A stretch of DNA of 64,000 nucleotides, taken from contig JAODTK010001255.1 in assembly GCA_026419785.1 (NCBI GenBank), positions 62,001 to 126,000 on the forward strand. Reading direction: 5' to 3'. The notes beneath the pieces are model-generated. The model was not told the origin of the DNA, did not search any database, and was given only the letters and a program-made list of their open reading frames with translations. This document shows, in pieces, positions 8,381-24,985 of this stretch; the first letter of the stretch is position 1, and every line of letters starts with the position of its first letter. The stretch is from Sclerodactyla briareus. Taxonomy: Eukaryota > Echinodermata > Holothuroidea > Dendrochirotida > Sclerodactylidae. The translations under genes were made by a program, and so were the position numbers.

Positions 8381-10180
8381 TCTCACTCCGCTCCTCTTGG
8401 TGGTTGCACCAAGCTCCGCCCTCGACCGCGGAACTGCTGGAACCCATCTGAGAAATCCTATCTGAGAAGATAATACTAGTCTTGTATGGACCCCCAGGTG
8501 TGTTGTTAGGGGGGATTACAGTTAGCACACTCCGGGTGGAGCCGAAATATATTAATCAGTTGATCCTGGAAGTTACCTAGCCCATATGATGGTTCACGCA
8601 TGTCGAAACGTATTGGTAGCTGCGGACGTTAAAATTCCCCTGGCTAATACACTGCATGTTCTTCCACCATTTCAATTTATTGTATGTTCACCTCACGTTA
8701 ACCTTTTTGGGAAGGACTTTGATATTTCCTACCAAATTGGCCTGATATTTGTGCCCCGCCAACCATTCCTAGCCTGTACTTGCTATATGTACCCCAGCAC
8801 CTTGTTGTGTACCCACACGCATTCCTAGGCCTGTAGCATGACAGTGGAAACACCCTTGGGATTGCCCGTGAGTCCCCCATGCCACAATTCATTCCACATG
8901 GATGTAGTTCCACACAGGTTTAAAGTCCAGTCCGCGCCTACAAATGAGAAGTGAGGAGAGATCTTCCCACAAAACTTCCTGTAGCACCCCATTGCCGCTA
9001 TTCATTCCACCTCATTGCTGACAACTCCTTTAAACAGTCTCCTTCTAGCTCTGCCTGCTATGCAGAGGGATTAATGTAAACAAACTCTCTCATAGAGCGC
9101 CCTCAATGGGAAGGCTGTGGGAAATATTTGGGGTAATTTATTGGAAATAATAAAAACCGAATTACACTATGCAAAAAAGAAATTAACGCAGCCTAGCCAG
9201 TGGCACCTGGCAAAACCACCCCACGTTTTAAAATGATCGCATGTACGGTTTATGATTGAACGTGACTGAAACGAACGGACGAACGAACGAAAGACGGAGC
9301 GACATGATGGCTTGTTATAGCTGCTCACCACATCTAAAAAAATGAAGCGCACGGACTGACTCGAGAGTGAAGATAACATGCCGGAAGAGTGGCCGACTCG
9401 CATGCTAGAAGAACCACGATCAACTCCTGTGGTGCATCTCTCTGAATTAGTGCCATTCTCCTGAACTAGCAACTGGCAGTTCCGCTTTATTTTCTTCGCG
9501 CCCGATACTCTTACTTATCGCCATGACGCCATGAGAATACCGTTGAAAAGAAAAGGGTTTGAAGCGATGGAGAACGTAAAATACCGGAACCTGAAAAATA
9601 ATCGACCCATCTAAACTGTAGGCTCCTGGTACACACAAGAAGGGTGGTTTGTGCCAAGTGGATATTGGAGCTGAACCCCTCTTCCGGGAAAATCGCATTC
9701 AAAAGACGTATTCCTTGTATGCATGTTGCCCGACGTAATTGACTTTTGAAATATCTCGCAAAGAGTCTTCTCAAATTGACAGTCTCAATAAATGGCAAGA
9801 CATGAACAAGAAAAAAAAAGCATATACAGTTCGCTCAGTGTGTTTCTCTCCGCTTCATCTCAAATATCCATCTAGCCAACATTTTTTTTTTTGCTGACGG
9901 AGCGAAAATTTATTGATGTCTAACGAGTTATTAGGAAAGCGTGACACTAACACCCCTCATGCCCTCGTTTTTATACCTCCGATCCCGCTGGGATATGTCA
10001 AGTAACCCCTTAGCTAGTATCGGTTCGTAAATATTTGTGCTCTGATTTCAGGCATGTCGCCTCACCTCGTTTATGCACCCTGTTCACAATACAACCTCTA
10101 CGGAGTAAATTCGATGTTTCATTGTTATGTGAAAACTCTGCGTACACATTATGATCACCGTCCTTTTGTTGCTGAGTCCT
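8381..10180. other. No recognisable gene
   Basis: A pair of loosely similar segments (ATGCCACAATTCATTCCAC near 8880 and TTGCCGCTATTCATTCCACC near 8992) suggests an old local duplication. Open frames up to about 100 codons near 9167-9800 overlap on the same strand in different frames and match nothing known. Just outside the element that follows, TTTCATTGTTATGTGAAA at about 10117 is shared with TTTCACATTGTTATGTGAAA at about 12265. Confidence 0.5.
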
Positions 10181-10209
10181 CACGGCCGTATGCAAGCCGT
10201 TTTACTTTT

Positions 10210-10740
10210 ATTCGCTATTTAATGATATCACACAATTATTTGAGAATCATTATTGAATTGGTGATATCATCAAATATTTGATGATATCCCATATTTATGA
10301 TATCAGTAATTGAATTGGTGATTATAACCAATTATTTGATGATATCTTCAATTCATTTAATGATATCAACCATTCATTTAATATATCACCATCAATTAAT
10401 GATTCATCAATATTTGGTAATATCATTAAATAATTTGTGATATCACAAATATTTGATGATCTCAGTAATTGAATTGGTGATATATTAATTGAATTGGTGA
10501 CATCATCAATTATTGGGGTGATATCCACAACTTGAATGGTGCTATCATTAATTATCAAATGTTTAGTGATATCATCAAATTGTTTTGATGATATCATCAA
10601 AGGAATTAGTGATATCTTCAAATGTAATTGAAGAGATCCCCATTTATTAGATGATATCACTTAATTGATTGAGGATTTGTCTGAATTAAATGATATTCAC
10701 CAATTATTTGCTGATATCACCAATCCATTTGATGATATCA
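10210..10740. repeat. Left GATATC satellite array of IR-1
   Basis: Units resemble AATTGGTGATATCATCAAAT, with ATTTGATGATATC and CAATTCATTT variants. GATATC recurs roughly every 15-35 bases. The hexamer is its own reverse complement and the flanks are near-complementary, so the array can pair with itself in many registers. Many units have single-base losses. Confidence 0.85.
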
Positions 10741-11506
10741 AGAGTCATTCAACGGTGAAATCCAGCTTTGCGCGCGCTCATCAGTTCGCGGGAAGATTGA
10801 ATCCGACGTGCGCAAGCTATGCATGCACTGGACATACGTACAGTATAACCACAGCCCGGACATGTTCAGGCTAATCGCTTGCAACTGTGCAGGATCATAG
10901 TGCTGTGTGAACGGGCTCACTGTCATGTTTACAACAGCTCACGTCGTTCGTGGCGGCCGGCATATATGATCTCATAGTCGGTATACTGGTGCGTGCACCG
11001 TAGAGCTAGATAGCCTTAATCATAGAAAGGCTGGTGGTTTGTCCTTGACTCTCTGTACTCTGGTATTGTAATTTGTAATTACTGAAACTGCCTAGTTAAT
11101 GGCTTCTGGCCGTGGGCTTGTTCTGGACTCCCAATGACTTCCGAGCACAAGCGGAAGCTCATTCAACGCAGACCTGGGCCAGATTTAAGTAAGCAGTAGG
11201 CCTACTGCTGCCAGTACTACTGCCACTTGTGGCCGGTGTTATTGGTACCGAAACTCTCAGCAACCGATTAGCAAAGGGAGGACCGCCCTTACTGAAGTTT
11301 CTCAGCTCTCACGAGGATGATTTCGTCGAGTCGGCATGTAATGCAGCTAAGGCCGTAAGGGCTGCTAGGGCTGGCTACCTACGTACGACTAGACATACAA
11401 ATTGAAGCGACAGTACAGGCTGGGCTAGGGTACAGCATTCGACGTACTGTTTTTAATGGTTCTGGCCGCCGCGTTCCGTTAATAGAGTGAAAAATCATAC
11501 CGCCCC
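10741..11506. other. Core between the two arrays of IR-1
   Basis: This is non-repetitive and visibly GC-richer than the arrays. It contains no long open frame and no DDE-type or zinc-finger motif that I could recognise. It may be cargo or the remnant of an internal region. Confidence 0.5.
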
Positions 11507-12134
11507 CGCTTTTGGAATTGGTGATATCCAACCAATTTCATTTTGAGATATCACCAATTCATTTGATGATATCAGTAATTCGTCCAATTGGTGATATCCA
11601 TGAATAAGTGATATCACAGTAAATGAATTGGTGATATCATCAAATGAATAGTGATTCATTATTGTTGTGCTGATATCAGTAAATATTTCGCATTTATGAA
11701 TCACTAATTCAATTAAGATATCACCAATTCAATTGGTGATATCATTCAAATATTTGGTGAACAACCAATTATTGATGTGATTATCTCCATATGAAGATAT
11801 AACCACTTGAATTGGTGGATATCATATTGAATTAGGATATCACCATTCAATTAATGACATCACCTATTCAATTACTGGATATCATCAAATATTGATGATA
11901 TTCACCAATTATTCAATAATATCACTAATTATTTGATTGAATCATTAAGTGAATTGGTGATGTCATTAAATGAATTGGTGATATCATAAATGAATTGTGA
12001 TCTCATTAAATGAATGGGAGATATCATCAAATAATTGGTGAATTCACATTCAATAACTGCTTCATTAATATTTGGTGATATCATCAAATATTTGATGAGA
12101 TCACCAATTCAATTATGATATCATCAATAAATTG
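11507..12134. repeat. Right GATATC satellite array of IR-1
   Basis: The same unit family as the left array (for example AATTGGTGATATCACCAATT-like variants), continuing to the right terminal repeat at 12135. Units occur in both senses because the core motif is palindromic. Confidence 0.85.
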
Positions 12135-12187
12135 GTGATATCATTAAATAGCGATTAAAAAGTAAAACGGCTTACCATACGGCCGTG

Positions 12188-13400
12188 TGTTCCGTCATTA
12201 CCCTTTACCCCTAATAAATCGTTGATGTGTGAATGCCGCGAAATCACGTATACGGGGTGAAAATTTCACATTGTTATGTGAAAGCCCACGCGTAAACCAT
12301 GACATTAATGCCGCCGATGTACCATTTGTTCGAACACCACACAGGTATAATGTAGCATCCTTCAGCTGTCCGTTTAGCATGTGGTATTTATATCTAACCC
12401 GACAGTGGCGTACGCACGGGGGGAGGGCGGAGGGGGGGACCCATGACCTAATTGATCAAAATTTTCCACACGCAACTGAGTATTGGGCAGTTGGTCGAAT
12501 CATTTGCAGCTGTTTTCAGCAAATATTCAGGCAGCATTGTCCTAGGGGGTGATCAAAGTGTACTTATTGCCACTTTTTGGGGAGAGTGAGGCTATTTATG
12601 AGGGCGCACTTTCCTTGGTTCCGACCTCAACCACCCCCCCCCCCCCCCCCCCCATCCATTACCAACCTCTGCATCAGCTACTGATGCTGAGTGTGAAGGC
12701 GGTAAACCTCCGACGTGTATATCCCACGAAATTACTTTCGTGGACTGTATTCATAGGAACCAAACGTAATCATGGTCCTTTGACAGTACCACCTGTACTC
12801 CACATTCTCCAAGTTTCTTTTGAATACACCGAAGTTAATATTTTTTTACATATTTCGAAACTTAAGACCTATGCGCTATGGGTTTCGATCCCATGTGTTC
12901 TATCATTCTTGTGCAACTGTACAGGTTTGTTTATTGGTGAATCCCACCGCCATTTGACCACTAAGGATCCCGAACACCTACACAGGACACAGCCTCGCCA
13001 TTTACAAGCACATGCAATAGTTCCCCACTGTGCAAGTCCTGTTGCACCCCCGATTGCTTTCGTATAATAGATTCTGCGCCACCAAAATCACTACTTAAGA
13101 GCCTTCCCATCATTTCTCAAAACCCAGTTTAAATAGGCAACTCTTTCCCCTAGGGAAAACGTGCACTGATCGATTTCCACTTTTGCTGTCCGTTGGTCAG
13201 TGCTGAATCCGTGCGCGTCGCTAATGCCGGTCCGCCGCCGCTAGTCGCAGTTACTATATGTGTCTTACTATCGTACACTTGAAGTGGAACTGTGTGCCTT
13301 TCGAAACGTTGTGTTGTTTGTCATATAGGAGCAATTGGAACTTTTTGTAAATCACATATTATGCTAAGATTGAAAACTGTCGTATATTTTGTGTTAGGCT
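12188..13400. other. Mixed unassigned region with a poly-C repeat edge
   Basis: AGTGGCGTACGCACGGGGGG near 12403 resembles the element end near 1250. Repeat family R2 copy 2 follows at 12560-12652. An open frame of 172 codons at 12549-13067 crosses the poly-C run, which gives a proline stretch, and shows no family match, so it is not called as a gene. Confidence 0.5.
12560..12652 (+). repeat. Poly-G/C-ended repeat family R2, copy 2
   Basis: GGGAGAGTGAGG, then GAGGGCGCAC, then GTTCCGACCTCAACC runs into about 20 C. The same order is found at 1036-1128 (opposite strand) and 35725-35800. Confidence 0.6.
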
Positions 13401-13562
13401 ATATCATTATATATTATATAGATAGATATATATAATATAAATATAGATATATATATATTAATATATATATATATCTAGAATATATATACTATAATATAAT
13501 ATATATATATATCTATATATATATATATATAATATATATATTATATTATATATATATAAAAG

Positions 13563-13594
<32 letters not shown>

Positions 13595-13610
13595 GTAGTA
13601 ATATACAAAA
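13401..13610. repeat. (AT)n microsatellite, imperfect
   Basis: About 200 bases of TA and ATAT runs with TATAGATATA interruptions. It lies immediately upstream of the Penelope-like element. Apparent self-complementarity here is a trivial consequence of the dinucleotide. Confidence 0.95.
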
Positions 13611-13639
13611 ACCGACCTCGACCCCGCAAAAAACCGGAA

Positions 13640-14640
13640 AAAAAAATGGTAAGGTCAGCAAGCACATGCTGGACCGTATCAATTCTAGCTTGCGTCAGAA
13701 GCTGAGCTATAACCATTGGCGTTCAGTCCACAAACCCGTCGTCCTAGATTGTTTCAACAGGTCCACATCAAAGGAAAATAAATGGGGGGTCGTGGATTAC
13801 CTGGACGCAACACTAGACCTCAGACCGCACCCCCGACCCTTCCGCAACCCCAATGACCAACCCTCGTACGTCCACGCCGCTGTCCACCACCCCCCAGCAG
13901 TCACTAAGCGCATCCCGGAGAGCATTGCGGGCAGGATATCCACCCTTCATCTAACCAGGAGATTTTCAACGCCGTCGCGCCAATCTACAATCAGGCACTG
14001 CGGGACAGCGGATACCAGGACCGCATACAGTACATCAAGCGAAACGCCGACCGCACGCAAGCCCCCAACAGCAAGAGAACCCTCACGAGGAACATAACAA
14101 CCTAACCAACCGAGCGCACCTGCAACTGCAGAGAGTAGTTAAACAAAACTGCCCCTCTATTGGAACTTCAATGGCGAGCAACCTGGTCTATAGGGCTGAC
14201 GTCACATCCGGTCAATGCACCTACTCATACATTGGGATATCGAGATTACTTTCAAGGGCAGAGATACTCATCACACACGTAAGTCCTTCCTCACGAGAGG
14301 TACGCAAGGACCCAGACTCTGCAAAACACATATGGGACCTCAAGCGTACGGGGGATATGTTTTTTCATTAAGTGGCAGATCCTCAAACAGTCCAAACCCG
14401 CATGCGGCATATCGAGTCAGTGCAACCTTTGTATGGAAGAAAAACTATTATCCTCTTGTCAGATAAGCCCGCTTTGCGCAATAAAAATCTGGAGTACATT
14501 TCCAAGTGTAGACACAACACAATCAAATCAAAACCACTCCAACCGTGCCGAAAAGATAAGCCCATGGTCTCTAAATTAGGTCTAGCTTGGTCGGTTGTAT
14601 CACGGTTCAGTCGTCCTGACGATCGCATGGCGTGAAACCT
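13640..14640 (+). pseudogene. Penelope-like retroelement, 3' part with GIY-YIG endonuclease remnant
   Basis: A reverse-transcriptase tail and an endonuclease domain are recognisable across three frames. In order: VVDYLDATLDLR and PFRNPNDQPSYVH near 13788-13875; HHPPAVTKRIPESI near 13885-13925; APIYNQALRDSGYQDRIQY in another frame near 13975-14035; RTCNCR near 14112-14130; SNLVYRADVTSGQCTYSYIG near 14175-14235; ITFKGR then HHT near 14240-14270; KHIWDLKRTG near 14325-14350; and CNLCMEE and NKNLEYISKC near 14425-14510. The YSYIG, basic FKGR and KHIWDLK spacing is that of a GIY-YIG nuclease, which in Penelope-like elements follows the reverse transcriptase. The polymerase active site upstream of 13640 is missing. 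The stretch family members usually carry between the NIT end (about 14095) and the CNCR motif is also missing. Frameshifts make it inactive. Confidence 0.75.
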
Positions 14641-15590
14641 TAGGTAATGTATCCGATATTTCAATATAACCTGAGGATAGCAAAAATATAGAGCCATCTG
14701 CATCTAAATTATCACCGATTAACCTATATCTCCCATCTTTTTTGCGATATCCCATATTGTATTCCAGAATACTTTTCTGCAAATCATGATTTGCTTCTGA
14801 CAATACTTTTGAGCCGCTGAAAAAGGACATAGTCTTCCAACTCGATATTCTATTTTCTACAATTCCTGATATCTGAATAAATGCAAATTTAAATCCGAAA
14901 TTGAATTTCAGATTTCTCAAATTAAATTTCGATTCCACCAAAATTTCGGATATCCAAAATACAATTTGATATATTATTTGGATGTTCAGGTTAACCAAAT
15001 TCAGATTTCAGATATCCAGAATTCACATTTATTAATTGGTTGTTCAGCGGGCTCATGCTGCGTCCTCATGGCGTTCATGTAAGGGTTTGGAGGTTATTAC
15101 ATGCTTGAGACTGCAGCGCAGTGTACGTAGTTCCACTATGATTTATTGAATGCCATTGCCAGCGCATGTGTAATGACATCAATTAATTCCGGGATATTCA
15201 ATTGAATTTTGGAATCCAAACCATTGTCCGACATCAGAAATGGATTACTCGATATCTGAAACTGCTTAACGGATATATCATGAATTGGAAATTTGATATA
15301 TAAAATTTAAAAAACGGAATGGAAAGAAATGGGAATTTTTTTTTTTTAATTAAAAACAAAACCCATGATCCGATATCATAAATATTTGAGCTATCAGCTA
15401 TATCCCTCTGGATATGTGACATCCTCACTTTGGAAAAAAATCCGGTCAATATGATTAAGTCAGATATCGGAAAATGAATTCAGGATATCCGAAATTGTCA
15501 ATACATATCGTCAAAACTCTATTTCAGATTCCAAATTACTTACTGATAACCATATATTGATTTCTGATACTGAATAGGAAAAATTGGGAC
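14641..15590. repeat. Degenerate GATATCC/TTTCGGATATCC-rich region
   Basis: Short units such as TTTCGGATATCCAAAAT and CAGATATCCAGAATTC recur at 14640-15040 and again at 15180-15580, with about 140 bases of other sequence between. It follows the Penelope-like element directly. The unit resembles, but is not the same as, that of IR-1. I could not define terminal repeats. Confidence 0.5.
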
Positions 15591-22279: not shown

Positions 22280-24985
22280 AAACTGTTCCTTCTTGGTTGT
22301 TGAGTTGGAATATTACAAAGTTGACTGGGCCTCGGTCCTCAGTCGTAAAATATTACAAGGTCGATCTCTGTCAGATATTCCAAGTGGATATTCGAAAATT
22401 TCCAACTGCAATGTCGCTTGACCATTGGGGGGATGAGGGACAAACCCACACCCCGCTCGCGACGTCCTGAGGGCTACCTCAAAACACTCCGACTGTCACA
22501 TTTTTTCTAATTTCAATATTGGCAAATTTTTTGGGGTCGGGGCGGACCACCGAGACACACATACACCCCCTATAGATACGTCCAGGTTGGTCAATATATA
22601 TGTGTGTGTGTGTGGTGTGTTTTGTGGGTGTGTGTGTATTTATGTGTTGTCTGTGGTTTTGTTTTTAAATCAGCTCCCACCACTTATTGTAAAGCACGAT
22701 ATCTGCTGAAAGCAGAGAACGATATGAATTTGGTATGTGAGTTGCGCATATGCAGTATGCCGAGAAGAATTTATAACATGATGTTTGTTTTGGCCCCCAA
22801 GACTTCAAATAGGGCGAACTTTACAAGCGTGTTAACACGATGTCGCTAACGACAGGAAGCTCGTACCAGATTCAAATTGGGCATGTGGGTCGCATATATA
22901 TATGAGGTGAACAGTGGGTTTATGCGTCCAGATGGAGGTATAGAGGTCGTAGAGAGCAAAACTGAATTAAAGCATGTCAGCATGAGATGAAACCAAACTC
23001 TCGCGAGTATCGAGTTCGAGTACGATATGTGGGATGCTCGTATGGTTTGGTGATGAAACTGTATTGGTTCAGCATCCGAAAGGGGTATCAGTCAGGGTGC
23101 GAACCTCAAAAAGCTGTCAGGACGATGAATAACGAACGCAGGACATGTATCAAGTTGTGGAAACATAAAGAGAGTGTATAGTGAGGATGAACTGTATTGT
23201 TTCAGCATCCGATTAAGGGTATCAGTCAGTGTGCGAATCCTCAAAAATTGTCAAGGACGATTGAATAACGAACGCAGGACATGTAATCAAGTTGTGAAAC
23301 ATTAAAGAGGGTTTATAGATTGAGGATGAACTGTATTGGTTCAGCATTCGAAGGGTCATCGTCAGTGTGCGAACCTCAAAAAGGTGTAAGACGATGATAA
23401 CGAACGCCGACATGTATCAAGTTGTGACAATAAAGAGATGTATCGTGAGGATGAACTGTATGTTCAGCATCCGATAGGGTCATCAGTCAGTGTGCGAACC
23501 GCAAAAGGTTGTCAAGACGATGAAGAACGAACGCATGGACATGTATCAAGTTGTGGATTGTGTGAAACATAAAGAAGGGATAGTGAGATGAACTGTATGT
23601 TTCAGCATCCGATAAGGGGAATCAGGCAGTGTGCGAACCTCAAAAGTTGTCAAGACGATGGAATAACGAAACGCCGGACATGTCTCAAGTTGTGAAACAT
23701 AAAGAGAGTGTTATAGTGGGATGAACTGTATTGTGTCAGCATCCGATAAGGGTCATCAGTCAGTGTGGCGGAACCTCAACAAAACACAGTTTGTCATCAA
23801 GACGATGAATAAAAACGGAACGCAGCAGTATCAAGTTGTACACCATAAAGAGAGGTATAGTGAGGATGAACTGTATTGTTAAGGCATCCGATAAGGGTCA
23901 TCAGTCAGTGTGCGACCCTCAAAACGTTTTGTCAAGACGATGACATAACGAACGCAGGACAGACATGTCTCAAGTTGTGAAACATAAAGAGAGTGTGTTT
24001 ATAGTGAGATAACTGTATTGTTGTAGCATCCGTAAGGGTCATCAGTAGGGTTGCGAACCTCAAAAAGTTTGTCAGAGACGATGAATAACGAACGCAGACA
24101 TGTATCAAGTGTGAAAAATAAAGAGATGTATGTGAGGATGAATCTGTTGTTTCAGCATCCGTAAGGGTACAGCAGTTGCGAACCTCAAAAAGTTTTGTCA
24201 AAGACCGAGGAAATAACGAAAACGGCAGAATGTATCAAGTTGCGAAAACATAAAGAGAGGTAATAGGGAGGAGAACTGTATTGTGTCGGTATTGCGTACG
24301 AGGGCCAATTCAGTCCTGTGGAACCTCAAAAAGCTGTCAGGACGATATAACGAATCACGCAGACATGTCTCAAGTTGTGAAACATAAACAGAGTGCATAA
24401 TGAGGTGAAGTATGTTTTTTTCTTTTCGGTTATTTGGTGCCGAGGGTCATCAGTCAGTTGCGAACATCAAAAGCTTGTTCAGGACGAGATATAACAACAC
24501 AGAAATGTATCAATTTGTGAAAAATAAAGAGATGTATTCTCGTTGTTGTAGGCATCAGGTCGAGATCAGTAAAGGTCAGGAGAGGACAATCTCAAAAGAG
24601 CTTCTGTCGCTTGATATCTCTATGAAGCAAAAGCCTATAATTTAGGTTCATATCCAAGGATATGGGTTGCACATATAAAGAGTATGGCCAATCTTGTTTT
24701 CAGTGTGATAGGTTAAATTCATTTTAAACTCGTTAGTGACCAAACCCAGCGTCTCACAAGACATACAAGTACATCCTTGCCTGGCTGTTTTTTTTCCCGG
24801 AGTAGAAGACGCAATTAAGTGCATGAATTTCTTATGGGATTTTTGGTACATGAATCCATGTCGTTTTGGTTGGAGACTGGAGAAAATTCGTATTTTTTTC
24901 TTTGTTGACATTTCGGCCAGTTAGCTCGCAAAAACTGGATCAGGTCTGCCTGAAACTCAAACTTGGTATATATTAATATGCACGA
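22280..24985 (+). repeat. Dispersed repeat family R1, copy C (with internal minisatellite)
   Basis: Left part (22490-22985) matches 150-640 and right part (24640-24985) matches about 1320-1500, including TTGACATTTCGGCCAG near 24906 and CTGAAACTCAAACTTGGTA near 24950. The middle is an 11-unit tandem array where copy A has a single unit. GT repeats near 22602 correspond to the GTGTGTACTGTGTGTGTCTG segment near 265. Confidence 0.75.
22985..24545 (+). repeat. Minisatellite, about 11 units of 136 bp
   Basis: Each unit contains GGATGAACTGTATTG, TTCAGCATCCGATAAGGGTC, ATCAGTCAGTGTGCGAACC, GTCAAGACGATGAATAACG and a CATGTATCAAGTTGTGAAAC segment. The ACGAACGC-like motif recurs near 23130, 23272, 23402, 23530, 23668, 23812, 23948, 24085, 24215, 24350 and 24490, giving periods of 128-144. 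Units differ by many single-base indels. They are embedded in repeat R1 copy C. Confidence 0.95.

Follow-up and report, generated by a model that had tools for sequence, protein, structure and literature searches.

A foldback-type non-autonomous transposon family with IS3EU-type ends and mirrored arrays of a short self-complementary unit in Sclerodactyla briareus

The window, a 64,000-nucleotide stretch of contig JAODTK010001255.1 from the sea cucumber Sclerodactyla briareus, contains at 10181..12187 one copy of a family of transposable DNA elements with mirrored arms. Comparison with other genomic copies fixed the element proper at 10189-12179 (1,991 bp), and a perfect 6-bp target-site duplication, CGGCCG, brackets it (10183-10188, the same as 12180-12185, neither stranded). 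From left to right, the element consists of a left terminal domain on the plus strand (10189..10228), which begins TATGCAAGCCG; a left array of GATATC units, also on the plus strand and lying within the inverted repeat (10223..10745); an unstranded core (10746..11505); a right GATATC-unit array on the minus strand, the inverted partner of the left one (11515..12144); and a right terminal domain (12139..12179), which on the minus strand begins TATGGTAAGCCG. Both terminal domains were placed by alignment with 25 other ends, and the right one also carries the terminus pattern with two mismatches. The left end of this copy reads TATGC and the right end TATGG.

The original prediction had set the boundaries at 10181 and 12187 and described the ends as a 53-bp inverted match. 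The near-identity holds: two substitutions and two one-base gaps separate 10181-10228 from the reverse complement of 12139-12187, and their score of 74 compares with at most 27 for just under 3,000 pairs drawn at random from the window. The boundaries were rejected because copies aligned side by side diverge outside 10189 and 12179; the match had been drawn 8 bp too far out, and the repeat runs on past 53 bp. The outer 8 bp, CACGGCCG, differ among the other copies in the side-by-side alignment of ends and do not belong to the element, being the CGGCCG duplication together with CA/TG. CGGCCG reads the same on both strands and had on that account been mistaken for part of the inverted repeat, which illustrates how a target duplication, when palindromic, may be taken for the outer part of one. 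Outside the duplication, a direct repeat of some 54 bp (10094-10147 and 12246-12297) flanks the element; it is weak, its score of 21 being equalled by the best of 500 shuffles. The insertion target of the window copy may lie within a repeat.

BLAST extended the inverted match into the arrays, aligning 10181-10618 with 12187-11715 at 76.4% over 484 columns, and in the outer ~300 bp, 70-base windows of the left array pair in order with the right array. Terminal repeat and satellite, which had been taken for separate layers, are therefore one inverted repeat. The description of the arms as arrays of a short self-complementary unit was borne out: exact GATATC occurs 14 times in the left arm and 17 times in the right, and both arms have a 20-21 bp period by TRF. 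The long, multi-register stem was likewise recovered in ViennaRNA predictions, where the minimum free energy of the element was -768.6 compared with a mean of -454 for eight mononucleotide shuffles. In the predicted fold, the left arm has 274 bases paired with the right arm, in two registers for the most part, and 176 paired internally. When the right arm was flipped, the predicted fold still reached -684, indicating that the hairpin is due to the unit's own symmetry as well as to the mirrored arms. No RNA families were found in the window or in copies L010, L012, L016 and L018.

Further copies were sought in the assembly from which the window comes (GCA_026419785.1; 319 Mb, 3,171 contigs). 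The 27-bp terminus was detected at 54 places with at most three mismatches, 11 of them exact (TATGGCAAGCCG...), and its reversed control at none; as the pattern was ungapped, 54 is an undercount. Searching the genome with the left end returned 234 matches, again an undercount because 40 of 91 candidates were scored. Twenty stretches were fetched, and 31 ends were found among them and the window, 26 of which were taken into the end alignment. The ends start at or near TATGGCAAGCCGTTTTACTTTTTATTC, and the flanks of the 31 are unrelated from copy to copy; ends of L012, L014, L020 and L021 deviate, starting with GATG or AATG. Other copies sharing both termini, which the original prediction had proposed looking for, were found, and the 15 two-ended copies examined have facing termini and span 143 bp (L023) to 5,848 bp (L014). 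The gapped terminus had no matches in viral contigs.

Across these 15 copies, the left and right flanks match at length 6 with a mean of 0.53, compared with 0.39 for shuffled pairings, and 3 of 2000 shuffles reached the observed value. Length 7 also stood above the shuffles, less so (39 of 2000), and no clear excess appeared at lengths 3-5 or 8-10 (1596, 539 and 293 of 2000 for 8, 9 and 10). The 15 pairs superseded an earlier scan of duplication length with six pairs chosen from nine, which is the only one that covered 11 bp. The window copy and L010 match at 6 of 6 flank bases, L022, L025 and L044 at 5, L031 at 4, L014, L020 and L026 at 3, L011 and L047 at 2, and L012, L023, L045 and L046 at 1, so that only 5 of the 15 match at 5 or 6 positions. 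By eye, L011 and L046 have ACGGGC and GGTCG, respectively, common to their flanks if the register slips by one base. Among the 23 ends counted, the target flanks are GC-rich: position -5 is G in 18, position -2 is C in 20 and position -1 is G in 15. Eight of the 31 ends, with altered first bases or an uncertain start, were omitted.

Satellite maps showed that some copies are nearly all array and that others carry cores. A core of several kb, in pieces, is common to L012, L014, L015, L018, L021, L022, L024 and L028, with about 67-88% identity to L018. The window core differs from this type and is single in the genome: a query with 10750-11510 matched itself and a 154-bp piece at 75% identity on C3071.

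The window copy was not found to encode any enzyme, and no autonomous copy with these ends turned up among the copies examined. Stop-free open reading frames of at least 55 amino acids, with low-complexity ones dropped, were scanned in two sets. Neither the 98 frames from L015, L018 and L021 nor the 47 from L044 and L045 contained a credible Pfam domain; single weak matches to Cytochrom_B561 (E 0.0033) and Terminase_7 (0.0072) in the larger set and to MinE (0.0026) in the smaller were not credible as transposases. A first ten frames from L012, L014, L015, L018 and L021 had no Pfam match below E 0.14, and a P-type transposase with a THAP domain was absent from the scanned frames of seven long copies. 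The genome was also searched with rva_4 (PF24764), a domain that we take to mark IS3EU-like integrases. Five matches, of which three contain internal stops, were obtained at four places, and none of 14 control genomes gave a match. The rva_4 loci L037-L043 (C2228, C3014, C2120) were considered as autonomous copies and rejected, since stretches of roughly 8 kb surrounding three of the four places contained no family ends.

In the regular arrays, TGATATCA recurs every 20 or 21 bp. L013 (632-2120) has 71 sites with 67 of 70 spacings at 20, and L016 (584-1860) has 58 sites with 55 of 57 spacings at 21. In 20 less regular arms, a count that left out L013, L016, copies mapped with one array and most short copies, 98 of 365 spacings were 20 and 134 were 21, together 232. 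The window array is irregular, with 7 of 17 spacings at 20 or 21 bp on the left and 8 of 21 on the right (15 of 38). The step can hold across unlike units: in the left arm of L018, all 31 spacings keep it despite at least five linker types. Among 560 half-sites, the five bases on the outer side of the octamer are most often CCAAT (141) and TCAAA (107), indicating that the dyad extends beyond the octamer. In L016 each arm is homogeneous for a unit of its own, with 55 of one kind and 14 of the other, which indicates that arrays also amplify locally. The array-expanded L013 and L016, the latter with 55 identical 21-bp linkers, are possible cases of satellite birth inside a transposon.

The order of units was compared between arms. 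In the window copy, the inverted register scored 217, compared with 169.1 (sd 10.7) when the right units were shuffled, and none of 200 shuffles reached it. Inverted order was supported in L022, L014 and L028 (0 of 200 each) and in L012 (1 of 200), more weakly in L016 (2 of 200) and L018 (5 of 200), and was unsupported in L010 (21 of 200) and L026 (37 of 200); in L010, L016 and L018 the direct orientation outscored the inverted one. Because some rotation of the right arm in the window copy gave scores equal to the inverted ones (188.5 global, 220 local), the comparison supports unit order and not any single exact register. Between copies, 45 arm pairs from five copies were tested with 60 shuffles each. 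The z score was 4.1 for the window left and right arms, 6.4 for window left with L022 right, 8.6 for window right with L014 left and 9.2 for L022 left with L014 left; some pairs had no order in common, such as L022 right with L028 right (0.6) and L012 right with L028 right (0.4). Since unlinked copies share unit order, the array was carried along within the transposon. The window right arm is closer to the left arms of L022 and L014 than to their right arms, and this resemblance suggests that the window copy stands in the opposite orientation to those two.

L044, L045 and L046 form a sister subfamily with the same terminus, which L044 carries with no mismatches at either end. Its commonest octamer is AGATATCT, found at 10 of 22 and 10 of 26 GATATC sites in the arms of L044 and at 13 of 42 in L046; in L045 it occupies 7 of 22 sites, tied with AGATATCA, and 5 of 15. 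The octamers are a mixture, and there is no clean replacement of TGATATCA. Spacings of 20 or 21 bp make up 13 of 21 and 19 of 25 in L044, 18 of 41 in L046, and 9 of 21 and at least 2 of 14 in L045, and outward CAAAT or CAATT (CAAWT) is again common. A subfamily that changes the octamer and keeps step and outer bases suggests that the putative dyad site is under recognition.

Several known systems resemble the family in part. IS3EU families have TA..TA ends and duplications that are usually 6 bp (PMC10045372, section 10), and the passages cited on fungal members give terminal inverted repeats longer than 30 bp with TAYGG..CCRTA ends (PMC12730594). Our family shares TA..TA ends and the 6-bp duplication with IS3EU/GingerRoot; it differs in that the scanned copies have no transposase and in its array-type foldback repeats, which do not appear in the portions of the IS3EU descriptions consulted. 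Satellite DNAs similar to IS3EU are described, in the parts cited, for Crassostrea gigas (CgiSat35 and CgiSat47; PMC8268682) and for Tribolium, where half of TCAST10 resembles IS3EU (PMC5844308). Within the literature searched and the parts of it consulted, these oyster and flour beetle reports were the only ones joining IS3EU, tandem repeats and terminal inverted repeats, and a 14-base piece of our terminus was absent. Tetris, a foldback element of Drosophila virilis, is as described in the cited part likewise non-autonomous, with a terminal domain and tandem repeats in long terminal inverted repeats, and its variable arrays are also amplified as satellite (PMC4079207); its repeat there is about 220 bp, in contrast to the 20-21 bp dyads here, and its terminal sequence differs. 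Galileo, of the P superfamily, also has long inverted repeats with tandem repeats, for which secondary transposase-binding sites are shown in the cited passages (PMC3688188); it belongs to another transposase class, and a palindromic 20-21 bp unit is not in its description as far as cited. Rehavkus and Mutator-like elements resemble the family in long inverted repeats that include minisatellites in some groups, but the passages cited give them duplications of 8-11 bp (PMC6446971) rather than 6 bp.

The long inverted repeats made of tandem repeats and the variable interior are those of foldback-type elements, and the 6-bp duplication (reached by 3 of 2000 shuffles) and TATGG..CCATA ends correspond to published ones of IS3EU/GingerRoot. 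We therefore class the family among non-autonomous foldback transposons, with ends of IS3EU type but not with proven membership of IS3EU; the kind of element is broadly known, and the family itself looks new. The original prediction had found the class not obvious from the ends; duplication length and end sequence narrow the class without settling it. Helitrons and Helentrons are not known to produce target-site duplications, and the 6-bp duplication and long inverted repeats do not agree with them.

We consider that the family is probably a cut-and-paste foldback element mobilised in trans by an IS3EU/GingerRoot-type transposase, its arrays likely serving as binding or synapsis sites. A DDE transposase made elsewhere would recognise the TATGG..CCATA ends, and insertion would take place in a GC-rich, near-palindromic 6-bp target (~cGSSCg) that is duplicated in the process. 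By analogy with Galileo, the mirrored dyad arrays would most likely offer multiple transposase-binding or synapsis sites; a step of 20-21 bp is two helical turns, which would put the dyad sites on one face of the helix. In addition, local duplication enlarges arrays, and the exchange or loss of interiors gives copies from 143 bp to several kb. Against this reading stand the lack of a transposase in the scanned frames, the good flank match in only 5 of 15 two-ended copies, the excess also seen at length 7, the altered first bases of several ends, the window's own left end among them, and the copies in which inverted unit order is weak or unsupported.

That there is no element at all, the locus having arisen instead by inverted duplication of a satellite in place or by misassembly, is extremely improbable: the unit is self-complementary and the arms fold even with the right one flipped (-684 compared with -768.6), but termini at 54 places with none in the control, unrelated flanks and a 6-bp duplication contradict such an origin. 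It is unlikely, though far less remote, that the same mobile element depends on a transposase of another class (Mutator-like as in Rehavkus or Phantom, P-like as in Galileo, or one without a name), its TATGG being coincidental. Long inverted repeats with minisatellites or tandem repeats are reported for those classes in the passages cited (PMC6446971; PMC3688188), and the scanned copies yielded no transposase; against this, the 8-11 bp duplications given for Mutator-like elements in the part of PMC6446971 cited do not agree with an excess at 6 and no clear one at 8, 9 or 10, and TATGG ends fit IS3EU. A Mutator-like class had been our first guess and was dropped once the length of 6 stood out. 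A more serious, still minority, possibility is that the arrays are passive, a minisatellite born in an inverted repeat and spread by slippage and unequal exchange, irrelevant to transposition itself and self-complementary only as a trace of its origin. Local amplification in L013 and L016, the unlike units of the L016 arms (55 and 14), the very short arrays kept in copies such as L023 (143 bp) and the birth of satellite in a foldback inverted repeat described for Tetris in the part cited (PMC4079207) are all in keeping with passive arrays, whereas heterogeneous units that hold the 20-21 bp step (31 of 31 in the L018 left arm), unit order common to unlinked copies, and the sister subfamily, in which the octamer differs but the step and outer CAAWT are kept, argue against them.

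A more specific reading can be proposed, tentatively and as rather doubtful: the inverted repeats would be phased arrays of one dyad site (~AWTTGNNGATATCNNCAAWT, every two helical turns) bound by the family's own transposase, and the shift from TGATATCA to AGATATCT, which alters the bases on either side of GATATC, would record a change of specificity that split the two subfamilies at constant terminus and phase. The satellite would then track its transposase while being carried by an IS3EU-type transposon. Two subfamilies with one terminus and different, similarly spaced dyads make the choice between binding array and passive satellite testable. Foldback architecture, tied to Mutator-like and P-like transposons in the portions of the literature cited, occurs here with IS3EU-type ends, so that inverted repeats with arrays may have emerged alongside more than one transposase class.

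Other repeats lie nearby in the window. A second GATATC-rich stretch at 14640-15560 has a different palindromic context (for example TTTCAGATATCC), and no end of the foldback family was found there. At 13408-14097, a TA microsatellite precedes 200 codons of open reading frame that may encode a retroelement-like protein, and a tandem array of about 10 copies of a 134-bp unit occupies 23052-24409.
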